From: Novipirellula galeiformis
Lineage (GTDB): Bacteria; Planctomycetota; Planctomycetia; Pirellulales; Pirellulaceae
Length of the DNA: 64,000 bases
Direction: 5' to 3'
NCBI RefSeq assembly: GCF_007860095.1
Contig: NZ_SJPT01000003.1
Location: 331,764 to 395,763, forward strand
This document shows positions 6,069 through 14,415 of the stretch, one piece after another. The position numbers and the translations under genes were made by a program. Below the pieces are notes generated by a model. That model was not told the DNA's origin. It saw only the letters and a list, made by a program, of their open reading frames with translations, and did not search any database. The first letter of the stretch is position 1. The number at the start of each line of letters is the position of its first letter.

Positions 6069-7415
6069 ATGACAACGATCAAACAAGGTTTGGATCTGCC
6101 CATCACGGGCGTTCCTGAGCAACACATCGAAGTTGCCAAACACGTCCGTCACGTTGCACTCCTCGGCGACGACTATGTTGGCATGAAGCCCACGATGTTG
6201 GTCGGCGAGGGCGACATCGTTCGCCAAGGCCAACCGGTGTTCGAAGACAAAAAGACACCGGGCGTCATCTATGTCGCTCCGGCCTCGGGTAAAGTGACCC
6301 AGCTCAACCGCGGTGCCAAACGCAAGTTCGAGTCGCTGGTGATCGAAGTCGACGGAGACGAGCGAGTCGAGTACGAGGGCGTTCGCGGATCCGACCCAGC
6401 ATCGCTCGGTCGCGATCGTGTCGAAGCGCATTTGCTCGAGAGTGGTTTGTGGACCGCGCTCCGCACCCGCCCGTTTGGCAAGGTGCCTGTTCCCGGTACC
6501 AAACCGAGTTCGATTTTCGTTCAAGCGATTGATACCAATCCGCTAGCGGCTGATCCCGTTGTCGCAATCGCGAGTCGCAAAGAGCAGTTTTCGCTGGGCT
6601 TGGTTGCGTTGAAGCAATTGACCGACGGAAAAGTGTTTGTTTGCAAGGGCGAGGGCGCCGAGATTCCTGGCTCCTCGACCAACGGGGTTCAGGTGGAAAG
6701 CTTCGCAGGACCGCACCCCGCTGGGCTAGTCGGCACCCACATCCACTTTCTCGACCCCGTCGGGCCGACCAAGACGGTGTGGTACATCAATTACCAAGAC
6801 GTCTGTGCCATCGGTTCGCTCTGGCAAACCGGCACGTTGGACGTTCGCCGCGTGATCTCGTTGGCTGGACCGCTGGTCAAGCAACCTCGATTGATCGAGA
6901 CCCGCTTGGGTGCCGACGTCGCTGAATTATCCGCGGGCGAGCTCGTCGATGACGTGACACCCCGTGTGGTATCGGGTTCGGTGCTTAACGGCCGCACCGC
7001 CACAGGCACCCATGGGTACCTGGGACGCTACCACAATCAAATTTCGGTTTTGGCCGAAGGCAACCAGCGAGAGTTCCTGGGCTGGCAGGGCCCTGGACTC
7101 GACAAGTTTTCGGTCACCCGCGTCTATGCCTCGGCTGCGATGCCTGGCAAAAAGTTCGCCATGACCACCACCACTCATGGCAGCGAACGCGCCATGGTGC
7201 CATTGGGCACGTACGAGCAAGTGATGCCGCTAGATATTTTGCCAACTCAACTTTTGCGTTCGCTGATTTATCGCGACACCGATGAAGCTCAACAACTTGG
7301 TGCACTAGAGCTCGAGGAAGAAGATTTGGCGTTGTGCACCTTTGTTTGCCCCGGCAAATACGAATACAGCTCGCTTTTACGCGAAAGCTTGGCGACGATC
7401 GAGCGAGAAGGTTAA
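6069..7415 (+). CDS. nqrA: Na+-translocating NADH:quinone reductase subunit A
   Basis: First gene of the six-subunit sodium pump Na+-NQR. NqrA is the peripheral cytoplasmic subunit that takes part in quinone binding. The 448-residue product starts [18 protein letters not shown], a typical NqrA beginning. It contains the biotinyl-lipoyl-like segment ([21 protein letters not shown]...APASGKV), the [18 protein letters not shown] block and a C-terminal [19 protein letters not shown] segment. The length matches the family (about 446). The frame is open upstream to 5760, but the ATG at 6069 is the family start. nqrB follows after 128 bases. Confidence 0.95.
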
Positions 7416-7543: not shown

Positions 7544-8839
7544 ATGAAAGCACTTCGAGACGCGCTTGACAAAGTCCACCCCTTGTTTGCCAAGGGTGGA
7601 GCATTGGAGATTGCGTATCCCATTTACGAAGCGTTAGATACGTTTCTGTACACGCCTGGCGAAACCGCCAAGGGCCAAACCCACGTACGTGATGCCATCG
7701 ACCTGAAACGGATGATGATCACGGTCGTGATGGCATTGGTCCCGGTGACGTTGTTCGGCATGTGGAATGTGGGTTACCAAGCAAACAGTGCCGTACAGGC
7801 GATGGCGACCGCAGGCATCGATCACGTCGGTGATTGGCACTATACGATCCATCACGCGATCGGTTTTACCAACGACCCGACGAGCCACGCAGACAATTTT
7901 GTCCTCGGTGCCATTCACTTTTTACCGATCTACATCGTTTGCATGTTTGTCGGTGGACACATCGAGATGGTGTTCAGCGTGCTACGCGGACACGAGATTA
8001 ACGAGGGTTTCCTCGTCACCGGATTATTGTTTCCCCTCACGCTGCCCCCCACGATTCCGCTCTGGCAGGTAGCGTTAGGAATTGCCTTTGGCGTCATCGT
8101 GGCCAAGGAAGTGTTCGGGGGTACCGGACGAAACTTCTTAAACGTCGCTTTGACCAGTCGCGCATTCTTGTACTTTGCCTACGCCGGTGAAATCAGCGGC
8201 GACAAAGTCTGGACCGCCGCCGATGGATTCAGCGGCGCCACGGCGCTGGGGCAAATGGCCAACGCCACGGCGGCACCCAACGCCGAAGCCGGTGCAGCGA
8301 TCGCGAATCCTGCGATCGCATCGCTAAGCCATATCCAATACAGCTGGAACGAAGAGGGGGCGATCACTTGGATGAGCGCATTCTTGGGTACCATTCAAGG
8401 CTGTGTCGGTGAAACGAGCACGCTACTGTGCATCGTCGGTGCGGCAATGCTCATCGCTGCGGGCATCGGTTCTTGGAAGGTGATGGCCGGGGTTCTTTTG
8501 GGAGTGATTGCAACCGCATCGCTACTCAACGGCGTGGCAACCGAAACCAACGCGATGATGGCAGTGCCTTTCTATTGGCATCTCGTCGTCGGAGGCTTGG
8601 CGTTCGGATTGGTCTACATGGCCACTGACCCCGTCAGTGCATCGATGACCGATAAAGGCAAGTGGATATACGGCGGATTGATTGGGTTCATGACCGTGTT
8701 AATCCGCGTGATTAACCCGGCATTCCCCGAAGGGATCATGCTGGCGATTTTGTTCGGCAACGTTTTTGCACCGTTGATCGATTACTTTGTAGTTCAAGCT
8801 AACGTCCGACGGAGGCTCGCACGCTATGCAACAACGTGA
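7544..8839 (+). CDS. nqrB: Na+-translocating NADH:quinone reductase subunit B
   Basis: Polytopic membrane subunit of 431 residues that carries a covalently bound FMN and contributes to the Na+ path. The FMN site is the DGFSGAT motif with Thr233, corresponding to Thr236 of Vibrio NqrB, and is the target of ApbE. The N-terminus ([21 protein letters not shown]) and the repeated hydrophobic segments are typical of the NqrB/RnfD family. The insertion after the FMN site (about 236-270, Ala-rich) is slightly long. The last 14 bases overlap nqrC, so translation of the two is probably coupled. Confidence 0.95.
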
Positions 8840-10247
8840 TTCAGTTTTCTACACCGTCGGCGTTGCCGCGGTCCTATGTGTCGTCTGTTCGTTGGCCGTC
8901 AGCTTTGCTGCGGTCAAGCTACGACCGTTGCAAGAAGAGAATAAGCGGCTCGATCGCCAGCGAAACATTCTCGATGCAGCCGGTCTGTCGATGGGCGAGT
9001 TCGGTAAACAGGCTAGCGAGTTGTCTCGCGAACAGGTTGCCGATCTGTACAGTCGCGTGAGCGAAAAGCTGGTCGATCTCGAAACCGGCGATTACAACAC
9101 CGACTTAGATATCGAAGCGTACGATCCTCGCGAAGCGGTTGATAAGGCCGACCAGAGCATCAAGATCGAAAACCCCCAATACGACCTTGGGGAGCAACGT
9201 CGCGAAAAAGTTGCCAAGGTTTACTTCGTCCGCAACCCAGGCGAAGAAAAGATTCGACAAGTCGTGTTGCCAGTCTACGGCAAAGGATTGTGGTCGACCC
9301 TTTATGGATACTTGGCACTCAAAAACGATTTGCAAACCATTCAAGGAGTGACCTTCTACGAGCACGGTGAAACCCCCGGTCTCGGTGGTGAGGTCGACAA
9401 CCCCAGCTGGAAAGCACAATGGCCTGGGCAACAGCTGTTTGATGAGAACGGCGTCCCCATGGCAGAGGTTTACAAAGGCCCCGCGCCCGACGGTAATCCC
9501 TACGCGGTCGATGGACTCTCCGGAGCAACCATCACCAGTCGTGGCGTCACCAACCTGATCCGTTACTGGGCCAGCGACGAAGGCTACGGCCACTTCCTGG
9601 AAAAACTAAAGAGCGAACTTGGCAATCAAGATTCCCCCCAAGCTACCCCCAGCGAAGCAGCCAAACCTCAGAAAGCGGTAACCAAGGCTGTAGAGCCCAA
9701 AGCTGCCGCAGCCGAAGAGAAGAAGCCCGAGCCAGAGATGAAGGAAGAGCCAAAGCCCGAGCCAAAGCCTGAGCCAAAGCCTGAGCCAAAGCCTGAGCCA
9801 AAGCCCGAGCCAAAGCCCGAGCCAAAGCCTGAGTCAAAGCCCGAGTCAAAGCCCGAGTCAAAGCCCGAGTCAAAGCCTGAGCCAAAGCCTGAGCCAAAGC
9901 CTGAGCCAAAGCCTGAGCCAAAGCCCGAGTCAAAGCCCGAGTCAAAGCCCGAGTCAAAGCCCGAGTCAAAGCCCGAGTCAAAGCCTGAGTCAAAGGCGGA
10001 AGCGAAGCCCGAGATGAAGGAAGAGCCGAAGAAGGCAGAGGCCGAGAAGCCTCAACCCAAAACGGACGACAAACCGAAGGCTGAAGAGAAGCCTAAGTCC
10101 GAAGACAAGCCCAAGGCCGATGATAAACCTGAGGCTGACGACAAACCGAAGGCTGAAGAGAAGCCTGAGGCCGAAGACAAGCCCGAGGCGAGTGATGAAC
10201 CAAGCCCGGAACCTAGCGTTGGCGAACCCAAAGAGGGAGACGAATAA
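8826..10247 (+). CDS. nqrC: Na+-NQR subunit C with a long Pro/Glu/Lys-rich tail
   Basis: Residues 1 to about 265 are a normal NqrC: an N-terminal membrane helix (about 8-28), then a periplasmic FMN-binding domain with [12 protein letters not shown] and the flavinylation motif DGLSGAT, whose Thr235 should carry FMN. Usual NqrC proteins end near residue 260. Here about 200 further residues follow. They include an uninterrupted run of 20 KPEP/KPES tetrapeptides (310-389, bases 9753-9992), then a less regular Lys/Glu/Pro/Asp part to residue 473. Such sequence is unfolded or rod-like and would lie in the periplasm. A good ribosome site (GGAGG at 8812) lies inside nqrB. nqrD starts two bases after the stop. 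Confidence 0.93.
9753..9992 (+). repeat. 12-bp coding tandem repeat in nqrC
   Basis: Twenty in-frame copies of a 12-bp unit (AAGCCYGAGYCA type) encode KPEP or KPES. The variants come in blocks of 6 KPEP, 4 KPES, 4 KPEP and 6 KPES, which points to expansion by duplication of blocks. Copy number is likely to vary between strains. Confidence 0.9.
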
Positions 10248-10249
10248 AG

Positions 10250-10876
10250 ATGGCATCCCCCAAAGTTAAAAACGTCCTTTTCGGACCGATCCTCGATGAC
10301 AACCCGATCGCATTACAAATCCTGGGGATTTGTAGCGCCTTGGCAGTCACGACGAAGATGGAAACATCCGTCGTGATGGCGATCGCGGTCATCGCTGTGA
10401 CCGCGTTCAGCAACGCCGCAGTCAGTGCAATCCGCCACTACATCCCCGGCAGCATCCGCATCATCGTTCAAATGACGGTGATCGCATCGCTGGTGATCGT
10501 GGTTGACCAGTTGCTCAAGGCATACATGTTTGACATCAGCAAGCAATTGTCGGTCTTCGTCGGTCTGATCATCACGAACTGTATCGTGATGGGACGTGCC
10601 GAAGGCTTTGCGATGAAGAATAAACCGGGCATCAGTTTTATCGACGGAGTCGGCAACGGACTCGGGTACGGCATGGTGCTGCTTTTCGTCGCTTTTTTCC
10701 GCGAGCTGTTTGGTAGTGGATCGATCTTCGGTTATGAGTTGATGCAATTGACTCGTAACGGCGGTTGGTACAACCCGAACAACTTGATGCTTTTACCGCC
10801 CAGTGCGTTTTTCTTGATTGGCTTTCTGATCTGGATCATCCGCGCCTGGAAGCCTGAACAAATCGAAGAGGCTTAA
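10250..10876 (+). CDS. nqrD: Na+-translocating NADH:quinone reductase subunit D
   Basis: Integral membrane subunit of 208 residues, homologous to RnfE. It has about six hydrophobic segments. The family motif [19 protein letters not shown] (about 105-123) includes the Cys that, with the one in NqrE, holds a membrane-embedded iron-sulfur centre. The N-terminus [18 protein letters not shown] is characteristic. It follows nqrC by two bases with an AGGGAGA ribosome site, and nqrE begins four bases after its stop. Confidence 0.96.
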
Positions 10877-10880
10877 TTCA

Positions 10881-11516
10881 ATGGAACATTACCTTAGCAT
10901 TCTGCTCAAATCGATTTTTGTCGAGAACCTCGCACTCGCATTCTTTCTGGGGATGTGTACGTTCTTGGCGATCAGCAAAAATGTCAAAACCGCATTGGGT
11001 CTTGGCGTTGCGGTGATTGTCATCCAGGCGATCACGGTGCCAGCGAACCAAGTGATCTACTCGTGCTTTCTGAAGAAGGGAGCTCTCGTCTGGGCGAACA
11101 GTTTGATCAGCACGTCGACGATCGATTTTTCGACGGTTGACTTGTCGTTCCTCGGATTCATCAGTTACATCGGTGTGATCGCGGCGATGGTTCAGATTCT
11201 CGAGATGACGCTCGACAAGTTCTTCCCGCCGCTCTACAACGCGTTGGGAATTTTCTTGCCTTTGATCACCGTGAACTGTGCCATTTTGGGTGCCTCGTTG
11301 TTCATGGAACAACGCAAGTACGACTTTGTCGAATCGTGCTTCTTCGGCGTCGGATGTGGCGTTGGATGGGCATTGGCGATCGCGGCGTTGGCCGGGATTC
11401 GCGAGAAGATGAAGTACAGTGATGTGCCTCCGCCGCTGCGTGGTCTTGGAATCACCTTCATTACGGTGGGCTTGATGGCGTTAGCGTTTATGTCGTTCAG
11501 CGGTATTCAGCTGTAG
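10881..11516 (+). CDS. nqrE: Na+-translocating NADH:quinone reductase subunit E
   Basis: Integral membrane subunit of 211 residues, homologous to RnfA and related to NqrD by an inverted topology. [19 protein letters not shown] starts the first helix, and [19 protein letters not shown] carries the conserved Cys for the membrane iron-sulfur centre. The C-terminal part ([18 protein letters not shown]) is typical. An intrinsic terminator follows directly, separating it from nqrF. Confidence 0.96.
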
Positions 11517-11595: not shown

Positions 11596-12819
11596 ATGGA
11601 AACCGTCCTACTTGGCGTCGCGATGTTTACCGTCGTCGTCGTCGCACTTGTTTTGATCATTCTCGCAGCCAAGAGCGTGTTAGTCGCTTCAGGCCCGGTG
11701 AAGATCAGAATCAATAACCAAAAAGAAATTGAAGTCCCTGCCGGCGGCAAGCTGCTCGGGGCCCTCGCCGATGCAGGCGTGTTCGTTTCAAGCGCCTGTG
11801 GTGGCGGTGGAACGTGTGCCCAGTGCAAGGTCAAAGTCGAGTCCGGTGGCGGAGAGATTCTGGCCACCGAGAAAGGGCACATCAACAAGAAAGAAGCCGC
11901 CGAAGGCGAGCGTCTTTCTTGCCAAGTCGCTGTCAAGCAAGACATGGTTGTGGAGGTCCCTGCCGAAGCGTTCGAGACCAAGAAATGGGAATGCACCGTT
12001 CGCAGCAACAACAACGTTGCGACCTTTATCAAGGAATTGGTACTCGAATTGCCCGCCGGTGAAGAGGTCGACTTCAAAGCAGGTGGATACATTCAAATCG
12101 AATGCCCACCGCACGTGGTCAACTATAAAGACTTCGACATCGACGAACGCTTCCACGAAGACTGGGACAAGTTCAACGTTTGGCGTTATGTGTCCAAGGT
12201 CGAAGAGCCCGTCGTGCGTGCTTACTCGATGGCCAACTATCCCGGCGAACAGGGCATCATCATGCTGAACGTGCGTGTCGCATCGCCGCCACCACGCGCT
12301 CCCGAAGGTACCCCGCCCGGCCAAATGAGTAGTTACATCTTCAATTTGAAGCCAGGTGACAAGGCGACGATCAGCGGCCCGTACGGTGAGTTCTTCATCA
12401 AAGACTCCAAGGCTGAAATGATCTACATCGGGGGCGGTGCCGGAATGGCTCCGCTTCGTAGTCACATTTTCGAATTGTTCAAACGCGGTAAAACCGATCG
12501 CAAGGTATCCTATTGGTACGGCGGTCGAAGCAGTCGCGAGTTGTTCTACGTCGATCATTTCCGCAAGATCGAAGAGCAGTTCCCGAACTTCAAGTTCAAC
12601 ATCGCATTGTCCGAGCCGTTGCCCAGCGACAACTGGACGGGCTACAAAGGCTTCATCCATCAAGTGCTGCTCGAGAACTACTTGAAAGATCATCCGGCTC
12701 CGGAAGATATTGAGTACTACATCTGTGGGCCACCGATGATGAACCAAGCGGTCTTTAAGATGCTAGATGACCTTGGCGTCGAGCCGGAAAACATCGCCTA
12801 CGATGACTTCGGCGGCTAA
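11596..12819 (+). CDS. nqrF: Na+-translocating NADH:quinone reductase subunit F
   Basis: NADH-oxidising subunit of 407 residues that feeds electrons to the pump. It has one N-terminal membrane helix (about 5-25), a 2Fe-2S ferredoxin domain with C68, C74, C77 and C109, an FAD domain with the RAYSMANYP motif, and an NADH domain with [15 protein letters not shown] and a terminal [10 protein letters not shown]...[10 protein letters not shown]. All cofactor residues are present and length matches the Vibrio protein. It lies after the terminator at 11527-11560, so it may have its own promoter or depend on read-through. Confidence 0.97.
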
Positions 12820-12879: not shown

Positions 12880-12911
12880 CTCCCGCGACAAGTTAACTGC
12901 GAACTCCCCTC

Positions 12912-14291
12912 ATGAACCGATCCACGTTCACAACGACAACGCAGCGAATGATCCCGTTCGCTGCGTTTTCTTTTGCTGCCGCTCTGCTGTGGCTCGCCGG
13001 CTCTCCCGCGGTGGCTCAGGACGGCGCCGAGATTCGCGAGTTTCGCGGCCAGACCATGGGGACAACCTACATGGTCAAAGTCTACGATCCTCCGAAACTC
13101 GCGGATGGCATCGACATCGAGATCGATGCGGAACTGCGATCGGTAAACGATCAAATGTCGACCTATTTGAAGTCGTCCGAGATCAGCCGATTCAACGCTT
13201 CGGAATCAACCGATTGGTTTGACGTCAGTGCGGAGACCGCGTTGGTCGTTGACGCCGCACTACGAATTTCCAAAGCAACCAACGGTGCGTTTGACGTCAC
13301 CGTCGGCCCGTTGGTCAATGCGTGGAGCTTCGGACCGGATGCAAAAACAAACACTGTCCCCAGTGACGAAACGATCGCGACGCTTCGTGAATCGGTCGGT
13401 TACGAAAAGCTAGCGGTGCGAATCGAACCGCCCGCATTGAAGAAATCGACGTCCTCATTGAAAGTAGACCTCTCGTCCATCGCCAAAGGACACGGCGTCG
13501 ACCGCGTCATCGCGTTGCTCGAGCGTCATGGTGCCAAAAACGTCTTTGTCGAAATCGGAGGCGAAGTGCGGGTGACGGGCAAGAAAGGCGACCAACCTTG
13601 GAAGGTCGGAATCCAGGACCCGAGGATCGAGCAATCAGGAACCAACGAGACGCCGCTGGCCGCTGCTCACCCCATCGAAAACCAAGCGATGGCGACGTCG
13701 GGTGATTACCGGATCTTTTTTGAAGTGGATGGAAAACGCTATTCCCACACCCTCGATCCGCGCAGCGGGCGTCCGATCGACCACGATCTCGCCTCCGTGT
13801 CGGTGATCGCTCCGACGTGTATGGAAGCAGACGGGTGGGCCACCGCGATCAATGTGCTCGGAGCGGAGCAAGGGGCGAAAATCGCGGCTGCTGAAGGCTT
13901 GGACATTCTATTGATCCGCCACCGTGGAAACGAATTCACGCGGCTCGGGACGGGAACGCTCGCGCAATACGCGACGGATCCGAAACTTGAACCGCATGCG
14001 GCCCAGACTCAAACCCACCAAGCCGCTCAGCCGGGCGACGCGGCACACGCCAGCGAAGAGGCGACGTTCTTTGCCAAAATGCTTCCCACCTTGATCATCA
14101 CGTTGATCGGATTTGGAATCATCTTGAGCGCGATGGCAATCGGAGTGATCTTCGGACGTAAATCGATCAGCGGTTCGTGCGGTGGCTTGGCGGGGAAGAA
14201 AAATGACGACGGCAGCGTCAGTTGTTCGCTGTGCAGCAATCCTTCGGACGCCTGCCAAGAACTCCGCGAGCAGATGAAAAAAGACGCTTAG
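12912..14291 (+). CDS. apbE: FAD:protein FMN transferase fused to an NqrM-like domain
   Basis: Maturation factor for the adjacent pump. After an N-terminal signal/anchor (about 14-37, ending SPAVAQ), residues 45-360 form an ApbE domain: QTMGTTYMVKVY, MSTYLKSSEISRFN, VDLSSIAKGHGVDRV, VEIGGEVRVTG and YSHTLDPRSGRPI. ApbE transfers FMN to Thr of NqrB and NqrC outside the membrane. After a linker of about 30 residues comes a membrane helix (about 391-413) and a Cys-rich end with ISGSCGG, VSCSLC and SDAC, i.e. four cysteines. This end closely resembles NqrM, a small protein needed for Na+-NQR assembly and usually encoded separately. The topology fits: periplasmic ApbE, one helix, cytoplasmic Cys domain. 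Confidence 0.92.
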   Translation: MNRSTFTTTTQRMIPFAAFSFAAALLWLAGSPAVAQDGAEIREFRGQTMGTTYMVKVYDPPKLADGIDIEIDAELRSVNDQMSTYLKSSEISRFNASESTDWFDVSAETALVVDAALRISKATNGAFDVTVGPLVNAWSFGPDAKTNTVPSDETIATLRESVGYEKLAVRIEPPALKKSTSSLKVDLSSIAKGHGVDRVIALLERHGAKNVFVEIGGEVRVTGKKGDQPWKVGIQDPRIEQSGTNETPLAAAHPIENQAMATSGDYRIFFEVDGKRYSHTLDPRSGRPIDHDLASVSVIAPTCMEADGWATAINVLGAEQGAKIAAAEGLDILLIRHRGNEFTRLGTGTLAQYATDPKLEPHAAQTQTHQAAQPGDAAHASEEATFFAKMLPTLIITLIGFGIILSAMAIGVIFGRKSISGSCGGLAGKKNDDGSVSCSLCSNPSDACQELREQMKKDA

Positions 14292-14415
14292 CGCGTCGCC
14301 CGGCTTCCCGCCGGTGGGGCACCAACGCGAGGAGTGCCTCGCGCGTTTTTCATCTTCGCCACGGAGGCTTTATCTTCGCCACCGAGGCAATCCTTCCTCC
14401 GTCGCCGAGGACGGA

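Follow-up and report, generated by a model that had tools for sequence, protein, structure and literature searches.

Does the gene that follows the nqr operon of Novipirellula galeiformis encode two maturation factors of the Na+-NQR in one protein? The window, i.e., the whole stretch of 64,000 nucleotides of this planctomycete that was analysed, contains an apbE-nqrM gene, which the preliminary description had read as ApbE and an NqrM-like domain in a single polypeptide. Both ApbE and NqrM are reportedly required for Na+-NQR, according to the work of Kostyrko in 2016. In Vibrio, NQR maturation is served by two individual genes next to nqr, namely apbE and nqrM, as the preliminary description had also stated (PMC12174285, PMC6209661). 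The iron centre of NqrD/NqrE "seems to require" NqrM (PMC12174285), and NqrM "was predicted to deliver Fe" (PMC6209661). Judged by sequence, the product of the N. galeiformis gene is probably one bifunctional Na+-NQR maturation factor (probability about 0.78).

Domain structure and genomic context of the fused gene

The six genes nqrABCDEF are complete and are located directly upstream of the fused gene on the same strand (Table 1), and all of them score above the TIGR cut-offs. The cysteines of NqrD and NqrE listed in the table are those that we take to be the holders of the iron centre. The flavinylation motifs of NqrB and NqrC both fit the rule D-x-x-[S/T]-G-A-[S/T] (PMC12052999).

Table 1. 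Positions of the nqr genes, the fused gene, and the parts of its product within the window.
Feature	Position	Strand	Remarks
nqrA	6069..7415	+	TIGR01936 562.5 bits, over cut-off; ATG start
nqrB	7544..8839	+	TIGR01937 543.5 bits; flavinylation motif DGFSGAT at residue 227
nqrC	8826..10247	+	TIGR01938 245.4 bits; flavinylation motif DGLSGAT at residue 229
nqrD	10250..10876	+	TIGR01939 323 bits; cysteines 28 and 111
nqrE	10881..11516	+	TIGR01940 320.8 bits; cysteines include 26 and 133
nqrF	11596..12819	+	TIGR01941 667.5 bits
apbE-nqrM fusion gene	12912..14291	+	open reading frame, 459 aa; starts 92 bases past nqrF
Signal peptide, from the N-terminus to about residue 36	12912..13019	+	by eye; class by home-made rule
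ApbE domain, residues 49-332	13056..13907	+	Pfam; His279 matches V. cholerae His257
Variable linker, about residues 346-383	13947..14060	+	low model confidence at 361-384; drift in fused pairs
Membrane helix, predicted, residues 384-422	14061..14177	+	AlphaFold2 model; hydropathy, charge of fused tails
NqrM match, residues 412-457	14145..14282	+	Pfam; cysteines 423, 438, 441, 448

Both families were matched by Pfam inside one open frame, and the motifs ISGSCGG, SCSLC, and DAC named in the preliminary description are exact in the translated sequence. The order of the domains is signal peptide, ApbE, variable linker, and a single membrane helix with the four-cysteine tail of NqrM. An AlphaFold2 model of the fusion, computed with 12 sequences, has a mean pLDDT of 78.2; its confidence is low at residues 361-384 and in the cysteine tail.

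The ApbE domain was recognized with 304.7 bits (PF02424, cut-off 25.6, E 7.8e-91). The closest solved structure by sequence is the V. cholerae ApbE (6NXI), with 43% identity and a TM-score of 0.90 over the target, and the model matched ApbE structures (ranks 1-39) with TM-scores between 0.80 and 0.93, again over the target. His279 aligns with V. cholerae His257, the position that is changed to glycine in the H257G structure 6NXJ, so that both the fold and the active-site histidine of an ApbE are present. The N-terminus resembles a signal peptide and contains no cysteine, therefore the fusion has no lipobox. Domain, fold, and active-site histidine are common to the fusion and the ApbEs of V. 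cholerae (6NXI) and E. coli (4XGV), and the V. cholerae apbE gene is also located beside nqr (PMC12174285). Unlike the two proteins, the fusion lacks a lipobox and carries an additional C-terminal membrane helix with a cysteine tail.

Scanned with the whole protein, the Pfam NqrM model (PF04400) gave 20.7 bits, just below its cut-off of 22, and for this reason the last 99 residues were scanned separately; they reached 23.3 bits (E 5.5e-5). The six-frame search of the genome yielded a similar score for the fusion tail, 23.4 bits. A profile of the 87 NqrMs from the surveyed loci that were classed as not fused, one of which (L171) is possibly a frameshifted fusion, scored the tail at 74 bits (E 9.6e-22, Z=5000). 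These comparisons bear out the earlier claim that the tail is NqrM-like, and a chance origin of the match appears very unlikely. An NCBIfam scan of the fusion left NqrM unmatched and returned only weak, unrelated matches, and a search of the solved structures for relatives of NqrM gave no credible hit (best E 0.48). A second NqrM, as a separate gene, was found in the genome neither by the six-frame Pfam search nor by the search with the tail profile, and the fusion is the sole match. The genome contains a second ApbE, which has no NqrM tail.

NqrM is reported to be defined by one helix and four conserved cysteines (Kostyrko 2016). Both features were found, i.e., a predicted helix and four cysteines (C423, C438, C441, C448) that are invariant across an alignment of 12 fusions. 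With the stand-alone NqrMs (DUF539) of Proteobacteria and other planctomycetes the tail has in common the helix, the GSCGG motif, further cysteines, and the positive charge after the helix. In contrast to them it is attached to ApbE, a clear separate start is lacking, and the spacing of its later cysteines differs from the CDC-x3-C of the Alteromonas and Aeromonas NqrMs. As it is joined to ApbE and is not a stand-alone small protein, we class it as an NqrM-domain fusion and not as an ordinary NqrM.

Distribution and history of the fusion

Among 294 genomes of the phylum, Pfam matched NqrM in 15, and 39 have an NqrA at E <=1.4e-18, which we term strong. NqrM was found only together with Na+-NQR: 14 of the 15 genomes have a strong NqrA, and in the remaining one (G158) nqrCDEF lie beside nqrM. 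With the tail profile, NqrM was detected at E <=1e-5 in 32 of the 39 strong-NqrA genomes, 14 of which match by construction, since they contributed rows to the profile. Three genomes (G054, G125, G264) gave only weak matches with this profile, and four others (G024, G028, G035, G243) no convincing one. The clearest of these exceptions, the genome G024 (loci L096, L275), has nqrACDEF and an ApbE on a single contig, NqrM was undetected, and its genus code is that of two fused genomes; therefore, NQR may not always need NqrM.

In the class, 123 of 397 genomes match NqrM. The gene is fused to apbE in 54 of them and split from it in 63, and in six the fetched stretch contains no ApbE. The fused form was found in 18/39, 33/61, and 3/17 genomes of the family codes f1, f3, and f95, respectively, and in 0/6 of the others; f1 appears to correspond to the Pirellulaceae. 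It was absent from all 18 fetched loci outside the class, which suggests that the fusion is derived. When named genomes were scanned with the N. galeiformis tail, a procedure that favours relatives of this tail, and the best 80 of 117 loci were kept, fused genes were present in 12 of 13 planctomycete loci, including Rhodopirellula, Stieleria, and Roseiconus, and in none of 67 others. Of the 13 planctomycete loci, at least six seem to come from genomes already counted and are thus not independent. The 67 other loci comprise 66 from Pseudomonadota and one from a Lentisphaerales MAG (L349). The latter lies on an Alteromonas-like stretch, its NqrM does not differ from the NqrMs of several Alteromonas in the part compared, and it is probably a contamination.

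The survey makes clear that the fusion is no single oddity, and it bears on the suspicion that it might be an artefact of assembly or reading frame, or a chance cysteine tail. The whole-protein NqrM score below the cut-off and one apparent frameshift elsewhere, in L171 (G652), a locus at a contig end that was counted as split and looks like a frameshifted fusion, would be in line with such an origin. Yet the joined frame recurs in the 54 class genomes and in the 12 named loci, which partly share genomes, and the tail scores highly with a model made from NqrMs classed as not fused. An artefact is hence extremely improbable.

The history of the fusion was followed on two quick trees, in which the outgroup rows do not fall on one side of a branch, and which leave aside the six class genomes with NqrM and no fetched ApbE as well as one FAR and one LONE genome from outside the class. 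On the ApbE tree the label fused or split changes 12 times, and at least three changes are forced by starred branches. On the tree of the five NQR subunits, which is based on the 100 of 133 rows that have all five, it changes eight times, at least seven of them forced by starred branches. An AU test rejected a single fused clade weakly (p 0.032). It was performed on a thinned ApbE set of 53 rows, selected after the tree was known, that comprised all f95 rows, the N. galeiformis fusion, every third other f1 or f3 row, and four outgroup rows, long or gappy rows being dropped. The changes on the nqr tree, at least seven, may represent gains, losses, or both, and the counts would fit repeated fusion as well as fewer fusions followed by splits. 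In 51 of the 63 split class genomes the start of the NqrM match, as measured here, lies in the range from 3 bases upstream to 22 bases downstream of the apbE end, which would make an easy starting point for a fusion.

Conservation of the tail and possible anchoring of ApbE

The fused tails have retained the hallmarks of NqrM. GSCGG together with at least four cysteines is present in 51 of 54 tails (four cysteines within 45 residues from GSCGG, including that of the motif, in 48 and five in 3), and the exact GSCGG is missing from the other three. The two fused tails L251 and L252 (G522, G646) contain GSCGG and have their later cysteines rearranged. Where the helix ends, a segment of 14 residues around this point has a net positive charge in all tails with GSCGG, fused (51/51) as well as split (72/72). 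Rates of amino-acid change were compared in nine chosen pairs of fused proteins, two of which share a member and none of which includes the N. galeiformis fusion: the tail is more conserved than the ApbE domain in eight pairs (exception L196/L240), and the linker changes more in all nine. This difference argues that the fused tails are under selection and are not mere read-through.

A lipobox, the motif for a lipid anchor, was searched for with home-made regular expressions and a hydropathy filter, with three incomplete rows (one fused, two split) left out. By the strict rule it was present in 6 of 53 fused versus 51 of 77 split ApbEs, by the relaxed rule in 9/53 versus 67/77, and by an earlier rule in 7/53 versus 51/77. 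Fused ApbEs are thus mostly devoid of the motif and split ones usually have it, so that the helix might substitute for the lipid anchor. The association was not significant when only independent pairs were counted, neither for the two pairs placed on starred branches in the ApbE tree nor for seven pairs on the nqr tree (on average 1.4 pairs by the strict and 2.8 by the relaxed rule as expected, 0.5 and 0.3 opposite, the rest equal), and informative pairs are so few that 0.05 is unreachable. Fused genes also more often have no nqr gene in their stretch (11/38 versus 4/64, loci of at least 18 kb; Fisher p 0.003, uncorrected). Either pattern, the missing lipobox or the missing nqr neighbours, may reflect common descent.

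These observations raise the question of whether the tail is a mere membrane anchor for ApbE, the function of its cysteines being lost or vestigial. The scarcity of lipid-anchor motifs in fused ApbEs would be expected of such an anchor, and the genome G024 has nqr genes and no detected NqrM. A mere anchor would, however, hardly explain why motif and cysteines are kept in nearly all fused tails and why the tail is better conserved than the catalytic domain in most pairs, and in N. galeiformis another NqrM was not found. We therefore regard an anchor devoid of NqrM function as very unlikely.

Another explanation is that separate ApbE and NqrM proteins are still produced, by cleavage of the linker or by internal initiation, and that the fusion merely sets their expression. 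The linker is poorly modelled and varies in length and sequence, as might be expected of a region that is cut, yet no cleavage site conserved across the 12 aligned fusions was seen by eye. In addition, as fused ApbEs mostly have no lipobox, cutting would cost them their anchor. Start sites were counted in the rows with GSCGG (3 fused and 7 split rows being left out). Any ATG before the helix was found in 20/51 fused versus 65/72 split genes, and an ATG preceded by a Shine-Dalgarno-like motif in only 1/51 versus 43/72. The N. galeiformis fusion has an in-frame ATG before the helix, without such a motif, and also a weak site resembling a promoter immediately before the helix (14071-14098; 9 of 12 matches, 0.3 expected), therefore some separate NqrM is possible. 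Internal initiation of a free NqrM is nevertheless disfavoured by the distribution of start sites, and separate products as a whole seem unlikely.

Proposed function and relation to known systems

For a bifunctional protein we infer two activities, a topology, iron delivery, and a coupling of the two steps as follows. The signal peptide would export the ApbE domain, which would move FMN from FAD onto the threonines in the motifs of NqrB (DGFSGAT) and NqrC (DGLSGAT). The chain would span the membrane once via the NqrM helix, with the N-terminus outside and the C-terminus inside, and the cytoplasmic four-cysteine tail would, in the role of NqrM, serve the iron centre located between NqrD and NqrE. 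An orientation with ApbE outside and the cysteines inside, as proposed in the preliminary description, fits the signal peptide and the positive charge after the helix. The joining would ensure equal amounts and co-localisation of the two factors, and it would provide ApbE with a membrane anchor able to replace the lipid anchor. Attachment of FMN could in this way be linked to maturation of the iron centre in time and space. A further-reaching idea, which is tentative and in our view rather doubtful, is that planctomycetes repeatedly joined ApbE and NqrM because both act simultaneously on the same NQR assembly intermediate, and that the helix then took over the anchoring, the lipid anchor was lost, and the fused gene became free to leave the nqr operon.

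An ApbE-NqrM fusion was not found in the literature searched, a scope outside of which the original NqrM study lies. The accessible parts of PMC12174285 and PMC6209661 name both NqrM and ApbE, and the words "fusion" and "fused" do not occur in one of the two and refer only to protein tags in the other; those of PMC8238504 and PMC12052999 do not mention NqrM. As the fusion is present in many public genomes, databases may already list it. A comparable case is known from trypanosomatids, in which ApbE is fused to fumarate reductase (PMC12052999). In both cases a flavin transferase is joined to another protein of its pathway. The trypanosomatid partner is the flavinylated target, in contrast to the partner in N. 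galeiformis, which is a second maturation factor.

In our judgement, it is poorly understood when and how NQR acquires its flavins and the iron centre in the membrane. The coming and going of the fusion in related genomes predicts an encounter of both maturation factors on one and the same intermediate, and the fused protein offers a single construct with fixed stoichiometry for testing that encounter. Moreover, the fusion gives a direct prediction of the topology of NqrM, and it suggests that ApbE needs membrane anchoring and does not need a lipid as such.

Several features of the operon were observed in addition. NqrC has a long low-complexity PEPK/PESK tail (9747-10189), encoded largely by 12-base repeats, that extends 238 amino acids past the flavinylation site; of the 97 NqrCs measured, the one with the second-longest tail has 61. 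The start of the fused gene contains a hairpin of 13 pairs with a T-rich tail (12938-12967; RNA fold z-score -4.28 for 12895-12990), which might reduce the read-through that reaches the maturation gene from nqrF. A terminator-like hairpin with a T run (14326-14343) is located immediately 3' of the fused gene.
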